Made by a program: the position numbers and the translations under genes. Below, piece after piece: positions 35,074-41,850 of a DNA stretch of 50,757 nt; within the stretch, counting starts at the first letter, position 1, and every line of letters begins with the position of its first letter. The notes beneath the pieces were generated by a model. It saw only the letters and a program-made list of their open reading frames with translations, searched no databases and was not told the origin of the DNA. The DNA is from [Limnothrix rosea] IAM M-220 (GTDB lineage: Bacteria; Cyanobacteriota; Cyanobacteriia; Cyanobacteriales; MRBY01). The stretch covers positions 133,380-184,136 of the forward strand of contig NZ_MRBY01000001.1 of the NCBI RefSeq assembly GCF_001904615.1, written 5' to 3'.

Positions 35074-36588
35074 TTACAGGGTTTTATGCATTGCCGTAAT
35101 TTTTTCGACCACCTGTTCAATGGTCATGCCATCAGTCACGATTTCAACTGCATCAGCGGCTTTTACAAGGGGGGCAATTTTGCGGGTACTGTCGAGGCGA
35201 TCGCGCTCTGTGATGTCAGTTTCTAATTTTGCGAGGTCGACTGTTTCACCTTGGGCTTCGAGATCTTTGGCTCGGCGACGGGCACGTTCTGCAGGCGTTG
35301 CGGTTAAAAAGATTTTTACTTCAGCATCAGGAAAAACGTGAGTACCGATATCCCGCCCCTCAGCGACAATGCCTCCTTGTTTGCCCATATTTTGCTGTTG
35401 TTTGACCAATGCTTCTCGCACAGCGGCTTGAGCGGCGACGACTGAGACTTGTGCTGTTACAGTTGGTGTACGAATCGCCGTGGTTACATCATGGCCGTTT
35501 ACCAGAACAGTAGTCGGTTTTTCTGGGTCTTCAGAGGGCTTTAATTCGACAGTCGCGCCGCTAACGAGTTCAGCAACGGCAATTTCATCTTTTGGATCAA
35601 GCTTGTTTTCTAAAACGAGCCAGGCGATCGCCCGATACATTGCGCCTGTATCAAGAAAGAGTAAGCCCAGTTCATCGGCAACGCGGCGGGTAACTGTTGA
35701 TTTCCCAGCGCCAGCGGGGCCATCAATTGCAATAATCGGTTGGCGAGAATTCAGCATGACATTATCAATGAGACGAGTTGCTCCGACATGGGCGGCAATA
35801 GCCAGTAAACCAGATTCTGTCACTGTTGTGAGGGGCTGTAAGGTTTCGGGATGCACGAGTTCGATATATTGCAGTTTCACCTCAGGACATTTTTTGAGGG
35901 TTTGATGGGCGATCGCCAACAATTTTTCGCCCTCCCGTTCCCCTGTTTTAAAAAGTTGGTGGGCAGCGGCTAACGCTTGGGACAAACCTAGAGCTTGAAT
36001 TTTTTCTGCGTCACTTAGATACTGATTTCGAGAACTGAGGGCGAGGCCAGATTCCTCCCGCACGATGGGGCAGCCTTGAATTTTGACAGGTAAATATAAG
36101 TCTGTGGCCAGTCGTTTAATGATGGCTAATTGCTGCGCATCTTTTTCGCCAAAGTAGGCAATAGTTGGACGCACCAGTTGCAGAAGCTTTACAACAATTG
36201 TCGCTACACCAACGAAGTGACCCGGACGATATTTGCCGCAAAGGGTGTGGGTCATGGAATTAGGCGGCACAATTTCTACCGATTCTGCCTGACCATAAAT
36301 TTCGTCAACGGAGGGCGCAAAAATCAAATCCACACCCAAGCTTTCGCAAAAGTGGCGATCGCCTTCTAGGGTGCGGGGATATTGATCAAGATCTTCATTT
36401 TCACCAAATTGGAGGGGGTTAACGAAAATGCTAACCACCACAAAATTAGTTTCAACCCTTGCCCGACGAATAAGACTACCGTGCCCTGCATGCAAAGCCC
36501 CCATCGTCGGCACAAAGCCAACTTCTTTTTCCGGGGCGATCGCCGCCAAAGCAGCCTGCAAGCCAGCAAGGGTTTTAACCAAAATCAT
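35074..36588 (-). CDS. panC/cmk: Bifunctional pantothenate synthetase / cytidylate kinase
   Basis: The fused 504-residue enzyme joins pantoate and beta-alanine (PanC, residues about 1-280) and phosphorylates CMP/dCMP (Cmk, residues about 284-504). PanC shows PTMGALHAGHGSL with the HxGH nucleotide motif at 33-36, then FVNPLQFGENEDLDQYPRT and GEKDAQQ. Cmk shows the P-loop GPAGAGKS at 290-297, LDTGAMYRA and GRDIGTHVFPDA. The fusion is characteristic of cyanobacteria. rlpA lies 20 bp upstream on the same strand, so the two are probably co-transcribed. Confidence 0.96.
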   Translation of the reverse strand: MILVKTLAGLQAALAAIAPEKEVGFVPTMGALHAGHGSLIRRARVETNFVVVSIFVNPLQFGENEDLDQYPRTLEGDRHFCESLGVDLIFAPSVDEIYGQAESVEIVPPNSMTHTLCGKYRPGHFVGVATIVVKLLQLVRPTIAYFGEKDAQQLAIIKRLATDLYLPVKIQGCPIVREESGLALSSRNQYLSDAEKIQALGLSQALAAAHQLFKTGEREGEKLLAIAHQTLKKCPEVKLQYIELVHPETLQPLTTVTESGLLAIAAHVGATRLIDNVMLNSRQPIIAIDGPAGAGKSTVTRRVADELGLLFLDTGAMYRAIAWLVLENKLDPKDEIAVAELVSGATVELKPSEDPEKPTTVLVNGHDVTTAIRTPTVTAQVSVVAAQAAVREALVKQQQNMGKQGGIVAEGRDIGTHVFPDAEVKIFLTATPAERARRRAKDLEAQGETVDLAKLETDITERDRLDSTRKIAPLVKAADAVEIVTDGMTIEQVVEKITAMHKTL

Positions 36589-40595: not shown

Positions 40596-40662
40596 AACAC
40601 CTTGCAAACATATTTCACCTTGACAACACCGAAATAATTGCGGCAATATATATTGCACATTC

Positions 40663-40735
40663 GGGGCTATAACTCAGCTGGTAGAGTGTCACAATGGCAT
40701 TGTGAAAGTCAGCGGTTCGAATCCGCTTAGCTCCA
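40663..40735 (+). tRNA. tRNA-Ala (anticodon GGC)
   Basis: A full 73-nt cloverleaf can be drawn. The acceptor stem is GGGGCTA/TAGCTCC with a G3-U70 wobble, the alanine identity element. The D-arm is ACTC/GAGT, and the anticodon stem TCACA/TGTGA holds the loop ATGGCAT (anticodon GGC, reading GCC). The T-arm is AGCGG/CCGCT with TTCGAAT, and the discriminator is A. The CCA end is not encoded. Confidence 0.97.
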
Positions 40736-40769
40736 TTAACAATTCACCCACATAATCCATACCTTTCTT

Positions 40770-41150
40770 AAACCGAACTCAGGTTACCGGAGGTTAGGGG
40801 GGTGAAGCAGAGCGTGACCGAAGGGAACAAGTTTGATACGATTGAATCAACGGCTCAAACGCCGAAAATAATAAAGGTTGCTACACCCACAGGCGGCTCA
40901 GGAAACGATTTAGATACTGACCAACCGAATGACAACCGAAAACGGCCATAAGCCAAAACTGAATATTTCCATCTGCGATGGGGCGCGTCGTGGATGTAAA
41001 ACCAAAATACCCGGTGAGACGGTCTGGCGACGAATACCGCATGTGAATTACATCTTCTAGTTAAGGGTCTGTGACACAGAAATCTCAAAAGCCATACCGC
41101 TTTGCGGTTAGTGGGAGAGCGTCAACCAACAGGACCAGCGCTTCATGTTA
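40770..41150 (+). other. Unexplained structured noncoding block between tRNA-Ala and sodB
   Basis: About 380 bp with no believable protein but many small hairpins: CGGC/GCCG (40851-40864), CCATC/GATGG (40969-40981), ATGT/ACAT (41041-41053), TCTGT/ACAGA (41068-41080) and ACCGC/GCGGT (41096-41108). Purine-rich connectors such as GTGAAGCAGAGCGTGACCG and GGGAACAAG separate them. The style recalls domain I of bacterial group II introns, but no 5' GTGYG boundary, maturase or domain V is visible, so it would be a fragment. A novel structured RNA is the alternative. The 77-codon minus-strand frame through it is not protein-like. Confidence 0.5.
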
Positions 41151-41250
41151 AGATTCAAAGTGTTTAGTTTTATGAACAACTCTTACTTCAGAATCATCCT
41201 GAGATATGGAACTCTGGAGTATTTTGAACACACCACGAGGAAATATCACT

Positions 41251-41850
41251 ATGGGATACGAACTTCCTGCATTGCCGTACGACTATACAGCTCTTGAGCC
41301 TCACATTTCCAAAAGCACTCTTGAGTTCCACCACGACAAGCACCACGCTGGCTACGTTGCTAAGTACAACGCAGCGGTAGAAGGCACTGATTTGGATGGC
41401 AAGAGCATTGAAGATGTGATCAAGGCGATCGCCAAAGATCCCGCTAAGTCAGGTTTATTCAACAATGCTGCTCAAGCTTGGAACCACAGTTTCTATTGGA
41501 ACTGCATGAAAGCTGGTGGTGGCGGTCAGCCTACTGGTGCGCTCGCAGACAAGATTAATGCGGACTTTGGCAGCTTTGACAAGTTTGTCGAAGAGTTTAA
41601 AGCAGCTGGCGGAACCCAGTTCGGTAGTGGCTGGGCATGGCTCGTGCTTGACAATGGTACGCTCAAAGTAACGAAGACTCTTAACGCTGGTAACCCCATG
41701 ACTGAGGGGCAAACTCCTCTGTTGACGATGGATGTTTGGGAACATGCTTATTATCTTGATTACCAAAATAAGCGCCCCGACTACATCTCCACATTCTTGA
41801 CTGAGTTGGTTAATTGGGACTTTGTTGCGGCGAATCTTGCTGCGGCGTAA
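41251..41850 (+). CDS. sodB: Superoxide dismutase (Fe type)
   Basis: The 199-residue protein has the four metal ligands in their usual places: His in STLEFHHDKHH, His in AWNHSFYW, and Asp and His in DVWEHAYYLDYQNKRPDY. The AAGGTQFGSGWAWLV segment is of the iron type. It detoxifies superoxide in the cytoplasm. The start at 41251 is preceded by GAGG at 41237-41240; an in-frame upstream ATG at 41206 would add 15 residues foreign to the family. A terminator follows 90 bp downstream. Confidence 0.96.
   Translation: MGYELPALPYDYTALEPHISKSTLEFHHDKHHAGYVAKYNAAVEGTDLDGKSIEDVIKAIAKDPAKSGLFNNAAQAWNHSFYWNCMKAGGGGQPTGALADKINADFGSFDKFVEEFKAAGGTQFGSGWAWLVLDNGTLKVTKTLNAGNPMTEGQTPLLTMDVWEHAYYLDYQNKRPDYISTFLTELVNWDFVAANLAAA

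Follow-up and report, generated by a model that had tools for sequence, protein, structure and literature searches.

A probable decayed, ORF-less IS200/IS605-type element carrying a TnpB guide-RNA scaffold upstream of sodB in a cyanobacterium

The locus between tRNA-Ala and sodB

The window analyzed here, a stretch of 50,757 nucleotides from [Limnothrix rosea] IAM M-220, belongs to a draft cyanobacterial assembly of 4.07 Mb in 92 contigs (G000). A tRNA-Ala (GGC) gene was located at 40663..40735 by ARAGORN and by Rfam (RF00005, 65.1 bits). It is followed at 41251..41850 by sodB, which encodes an Fe/Mn superoxide dismutase (Pfam Sod_Fe_N and Sod_Fe_C; start codon placed from a sister-genome alignment). 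These genes and all the features of the block between them lie on the plus strand. The sole open reading frame of at least 60 aa in the block, a 77-aa minus-strand frame, is not believable as a gene, and the block is noncoding, as the earlier note had held. At the Rfam gathering thresholds the tRNA was the sole match in the whole window, and a search of 40600-41400 at E<=10 added four matches far under their gathering scores, which are taken as chance. The block had also been described as highly structured. This holds for 41003-41125, where a covarying structure of 17 pairs was found, and fails for the block as a whole, which gains no stability over its shuffled versions (MFE z = +0.70; 73 of 100 shuffled sequences fold equally well or better). 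Elsewhere in the window, a single 504-aa ORF (35074-36588, minus strand) resembles, by eye, a fusion of pantothenate synthetase with cytidylate kinase.

The stretch 40785..41125 is probably the left-truncated remnant of an ORF-less, TnpB-derived element of the IS200/IS605 type, delimited by comparison with two paralogues (L002 and L003), with relatives in other genomes (L022 and L023) and with empty sites. Its left-end remnant (40785..40832), placed through the alignment with L002, is missing the first ~30 nt present in that paralogue. The 3' part (41003..41125) corresponds to the right-end guide-RNA scaffold of a tnpB element (the tnpB 3' end plus the right end), as judged from covariation and the covariance model R1. 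It includes the subterminal palindrome of the right end (41092..41111; ccataccgctttgcggttag) and the right terminus GTCAA (41121..41125). The terminus is the common end in three alignments (A1-A3), beyond which the flanks diverge; one A3 row stops one base short of it through the choice of coordinates. Comparison with sister genomes identifies the sequence from 41126 onward as the original upstream flank of sodB. Within it, 41126..41141 would provide the 16-nt guide of a transcribed scaffold, by analogy with the ISDra2 reRNA, and 41142..41154 is a block conserved in an alignment of four sister genomes (TTCATGTTAAGAT), probably the core promoter of sodB. The tRNA gene is outside the element.

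The truncated left end is abutted by the last 26 nt of another short repeat that is dispersed in the genome (40761..40786; acctttcttaaaccgaactcaggtta), recognized from matches in the same genome and from comparison of the flanks of 17 copies (L004-L020). It is at this stretch that 36 of the 40 own-genome DNA matches to the block sit, each 25-38 nt long, and the repeat end gave one match in the window and none in 100 shuffles. Several of the 36 genomic copies of this repeat (...TTTCTTAAACCGAACTCAGGTTA) lie close to contig ends.

Copies and relatives of the element

The four remaining own-genome matches are the window copy itself, a match of 27 nt and the two paralogues, L002 on contig C10 (86% identical to the window copy) and L003 on C13 (76%). 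The genus seems to include Picosynechococcus, since a pattern from the sodB leader of the sister genomes has its one hit among the genome contigs in Picosynechococcus sp. PCC 7117. The block was matched in two of six genomes in the genus search, and an order-wide search of 291 genomes, in which two candidates per genome were scored, found matches in three (the own genome, G002 and G143). The L023 element is matched 42 times in G143, including 12 full-length copies of 414-431 nt whose longest frames reach 83-92 codons, so that they carry no transposase gene. The window block had no match in the plasmid collection, and 11% of the length of the L023 element was matched in two Acaryochloris plasmids. 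The exact pattern GGCTCAGGAAACGATTTAGATAC gave no match in the genome contig collection.

A second ORF-less family was noticed in G143 (L044 at about 298-781, and similar copies). Its first ~126 nt are in common with the G143 version of the present element, its interior is different and its right end resembles that of L029/C56-type tnpB elements; it is perhaps chimaeric. An autonomous version was also looked for within interrupted G143 copies. The sequence that interrupts L048 resembles, by eye, a different transposase gene, which makes it a nested insertion and not a partner.

Ends of the IS200/IS605 type

L002, L022 and L023 are preceded by CTAC or CTAT, begin with CA and have GTCAA as their last letters, with a palindrome close to either end, and L022 and L023 have both ends in common. 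Of 31 rows compared, 26 have CTAT or CTAC just before the left end; the others are L068 (CTAA), L074 (CTAG), L103 (TTAT) and two rows that look like false matches (L057 and L075). The same ends occur on L069, an element in G003 with a Y1 transposase TnpA (PF01797, E 1.2e-36) and a divergent tnpB (OrfB_IS605). This tnpB is interrupted by an insertion that we take to be IS1-like, as named by eye from its ORFs. L022 matches L069 at the left end (81%, E 1e-17) and at the right end (73%, E 4e-17), L023 does so with E 2e-15 and 1e-16, and L002 with E 7e-13 (its positions 1-79 being the left end, 78% identical) and 7e-07. Near-terminal palindromes of the IS605 type are thus found at both ends of these three elements in the comparison with L069. 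What is left of these features in the window copy is the right palindrome and a portion of the left end, and by itself this copy matches L069 weakly (26.5 bits, E 0.014), as does L003 (E 0.012). The link between the window copy and L069 runs mainly through L002 and L022. The right palindrome of the window copy reads ACCGC/GCGGT where L002 and L003 read ACTGC/GCAGT; both sides have changed and pairing is preserved. Related ends also occur on two further tnpB elements, L029 in G002 and C56 in the own genome.

For the middle ~170 nt of the window copy (about 40833-41002), blastn against L069 and the further tnpB loci that were tried gave no match, so a deletion junction is demonstrated for a younger family described below and not for this older one.

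Insertion sites

The junctions of L022 can be read from an empty site. In G003 this reads TTTATCCTAC joined directly to TAGAAAGTG, the flank beginning TAGAAAG, and G004 agrees with it (TCCTACTAGAAG). The filled site reads CCTAC / CAGAATCC...GCGTCAA / TAGAAAGTG. At the window locus, the sodB upstream region could be aligned in four sister genomes (G002-G005), G001 being matched over the tRNA part alone. All four have tRNA-Ala (GGC) nearby and lack the element, and where the window reads GCGTCAA / CC they read GTCTCTAC / CC, with CTAC at the junction. The left junction of the window copy is itself lost, and its CTAC is known from these four empty sites. These sites show insertion after CTAC, with no duplication of the target. 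Comparable target motifs are TTGAT for ISDra2 and TTAC for IS608, according to the available text of PMC8612924.

The earlier note had suggested, as one of two options, a truncated intron that landed next to the tRNA gene. The proximity of this gene looks incidental, because the CTAC motif belongs to the sodB upstream region. All four relatives conserve a block, CGGATGTCTCTACC, immediately upstream of a promoter-like TTCATG..AAGAT or AGGAT, and it is missing from the window because of the insertion. The loss of this block may be the loss of a regulatory site.

A covarying guide-RNA scaffold at the right end

The last ~120 nt of the element align to tnpB 3' ends and the right end. An alignment of 16 sequences, from tnpB genes and ORF-less copies, supports a structure of 17 pairs in which 94.5% of the cells are paired and 11 pairs have changed on both sides. 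On four of five measures none of 500 shuffled alignments equalled this result, and on the fifth one did; when the structure was slid along the alignment at most 50% was paired. The covariance model R1 built on this alignment scores the window at 77.8 bits (E 3.2e-19; the window is one of the 16 training rows, and E-values of R1 come from a shortened calibration). Of 195 genomes searched in the order, 120 have an R1 match at E<=0.001, representing 70 of 94 genera; these figures include the four training genomes. A second alignment was made from 25 matches outside the training set, drawn from the 27 loci L149-L175 after omission of L149 (from a training genome) and L151 (whose score equals that of L150). 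In it, 98.5% of the cells are paired, 19 of 24 pairs show two-sided change and none of 500 shuffles was as good on any of the five measures; this alignment leans towards the structure, because it is fitted to the model and consists of top-scoring hits.

The earlier note's suggestion of an undescribed structured RNA stands in part. The 3' third covaries strongly, and the families of Rfam 15 gave no match to six scaffold loci at E<=1. The kind of RNA is a known one, the right-end-element guide RNA (reRNA) of TnpB. By its sequence and position the scaffold fits a TnpB reRNA, which begins at the tnpB 3' end, covers the right end and includes a further ~16 nt of flank, and it may be inferred to have served as a TnpB guide RNA in the past.

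A younger deletion derivative in the same genome

R1 finds 12 scaffolds in the own genome. One lies on an apparently full-length tnpB element (C56, 1,382 nt) and one on a broken tnpB (C20); those on C4, C10 and C13 belong to the element family at the window, and that on C9 (L128) is counted as a right-end remnant, because neither tnpB nor an L069-type left end was found there above chance. The other six are copies of one tnpB deletion derivative, at C14:33224, C6:58109, C6:307, C49:22248, C7:48280 and C43:803 (L103, L104, L179, L176, L177 and L178, respectively). In this derivative, codons from near the start of tnpB are fused to codons from near its end at a common CAACTGC microhomology. Five copies have both ends and are 347-350 nt long, L178 has no left end, and the flanks all differ. 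One common junction in six places implies a single deletion followed by spread. The derivative shows how the older family at the window may have arisen.

ORF-less elements with both ends and a reRNA scaffold may borrow TnpA for their movement and TnpB for their retention, and would in this way be transposons that carry only a guide; each copy may make its own locus-specific guide RNA. This proposal is a tentative one and rather unlikely to be right. It suits the younger copies better than the decayed window copy. Counting against it, the scaffold of the young derivative shows no extra constraint, with a mean pairwise difference of 0.057 as compared with 0.054 in the adjacent tnpB remnant (five of the six copies compared, L178 having no left end).

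Origin and state of the window copy

The best explanation, to which we assign a probability of roughly 0.93, is that the block descends from an IS200/IS605 (TnpB) transposon in a cyanobacterium related to Picosynechococcus and is now a decayed element without an ORF, which was inserted at CTAC, has kept a reRNA scaffold and is most likely inert. The ancestor would have been a tnpB-carrying element that lost its gene body and kept both end palindromes together with the tnpB 3' end and right end. A non-autonomous derivative would then have been inserted after the CTAC upstream of sodB, presumably mobilized by a Y1 TnpA in trans through single-strand excision and insertion; L069, with its matching ends, carries a TnpA of this type. 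Decay of the left end and of three scaffold pairs followed. A lasting effect of the insertion, if there is any, would be that a conserved portion of the sodB promoter region, on its upstream side, was displaced.

The window copy has decayed: its left end is gone and three of its scaffold pairs are broken. It keeps 14 of 17 pairs and L003 keeps 15, whereas all 17 are intact in L002, L022, L044, L103, L104 and each of five tnpB rows. L128 and L105 have 16 of 17. Two G143 type-1 rows have 13 of 17, and broken pairs alone are no bar to spread, because this type has nonetheless reached 12 full copies in that genome. A search of the own draft genome for a Y1 transposase (PF01797, E<=0.001) gave no match, while six of the seven genomes searched have one; with an assembly in 92 contigs, a TnpA gene could lie in an unassembled repeat, and the null result is no proof of absence. 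The lost left end, the broken pairs and the lack of a Y1 transposase match together indicate that the window copy is probably inert.

Could the copy still work as a guide RNA in trans, transcribed towards sodB, loaded by the TnpB of C56 and using 41126-41141 as its guide? The scaffold is still recognizable at the R1 score given above with most of its pairs standing, and the genome has a tnpB with OrfB_IS605 and TNB domains (L102). However, the three broken pairs set it apart from the five intact tnpB-element rows, and the tnpB of C56 is of another subfamily whose scaffold has an extra insert, so that such activity is very unlikely. A regulatory RNA or leader of sodB, co-opted whatever its transposon origin, is likewise highly improbable, as far as sequence comparison can tell. 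The copy does lie directly upstream of the promoter-like block of sodB, in place of the motif conserved in all four sisters. Against this, none of these sisters has the element here, related copies occupy unrelated loci, and the window copy is decayed.

HEARO, the RNA of IscB, was considered because it too belongs to the IS200/IS605 superfamily and occurs beside IscB genes in G143. This genome (L056-L065 and L036) has 36 matches to the RRXRR/IscB family, some of which are fragments of a single gene, and HEARO RNA lies next to those that were scanned; TnpB has 141 matches there, and the ORF-less elements number at least 12. An ORF-less HEARO element at the window can be given hardly any credence. 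The HEARO model RF02033 gave 12 hits (130-149 bits), all at IscB-bearing loci and none on the elements in the scanned loci, and no match in 40600-41400 (E<=10), in L002, L003, L022 and L023 (E<=1) or in L044, L045, L047, L024, L026, L049, L053 and L054 (E<=1). The three HEARO matches displayed begin with GTCA(A/G)C, whereas GTCAA is the terminus of the element, which also aligns to tnpB 3' ends, and RRXRR has no match in the own genome.

The truncated group II intron proposed by the earlier note, for which hairpins and purine-rich linkers speak, is practically dismissed, since RF00029 (domains V-VI; E<=1) and the GIIM maturase domain (E<=0.1) have no match in the own genome, Rfam searches of the window and of L002, L003, L022 and L023 gave no intron match, and the family aligns instead to IS200/IS605 elements, at both of their ends and at the tnpB 3' end. 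The earlier note had itself named alignment to an IS end as an outcome that would speak against its proposals, and this is what was found.

Relation to known systems and implications

The closest known counterparts appear to be PATEs, such as HqIRS71 of Haloquadratum walsbyi. The available text of PMC3119063 describes them as short and transposase-free, with near-terminal IS605-type palindromes and no target duplication, some of them having arisen by internal deletion; HqIRS71 retains part of the C-terminal coding region, with all ORFs disrupted. The element family at the window is likewise short and transposase-free, with end palindromes of the IS605 type and no target duplication. It differs from the PATEs, as that text presents them, in its cyanobacterial host, in that the retained 3' part is a covarying guide-RNA scaffold, and in the left truncation of the window copy. 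The window element is best filed as a decayed PATE-type member carrying a TnpB reRNA scaffold.

The reRNA of ISDra2 is ~150 nt long and consists of the tnpB 3' end and the right end, with the last ~16 nt coming from the flank, according to the portions available of PMC8612924 and PMC10278001. Compared with the TnpB reRNA (omega-RNA) so described, the scaffold at the window has the same composition, a subterminal hairpin near the 3' end, what would by analogy be the same guide position in the flank, and a left motif in common with the transposition target. Unlike the ISDra2 system in these portions, the element has CTAY as its left motif in place of TTGAT, and it no longer carries tnpB. HEARO (RF02033) is, in the available text of PMC9755519, a guide RNA of the same transposon superfamily with another scaffold, a guide at the 5' end and association with IscB, and its model does not match the element. 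Among the titles and abstract openings searched, none mentions cyanobacterial reRNA elements that lack an ORF.

What appeared to be an orphan structured RNA has become a recognizable transposon remnant, and a false 'new sodB riboregulator' is averted. An alignment and a covariance model are now available for a cyanobacterial TnpB guide-RNA scaffold that matched no family of Rfam 15. The genome carries one apparently full-length tnpB alongside many ORF-less guide scaffolds, and this coexistence allows a direct test, in a photosynthetic bacterium, of whether non-autonomous elements are served by TnpB in trans.
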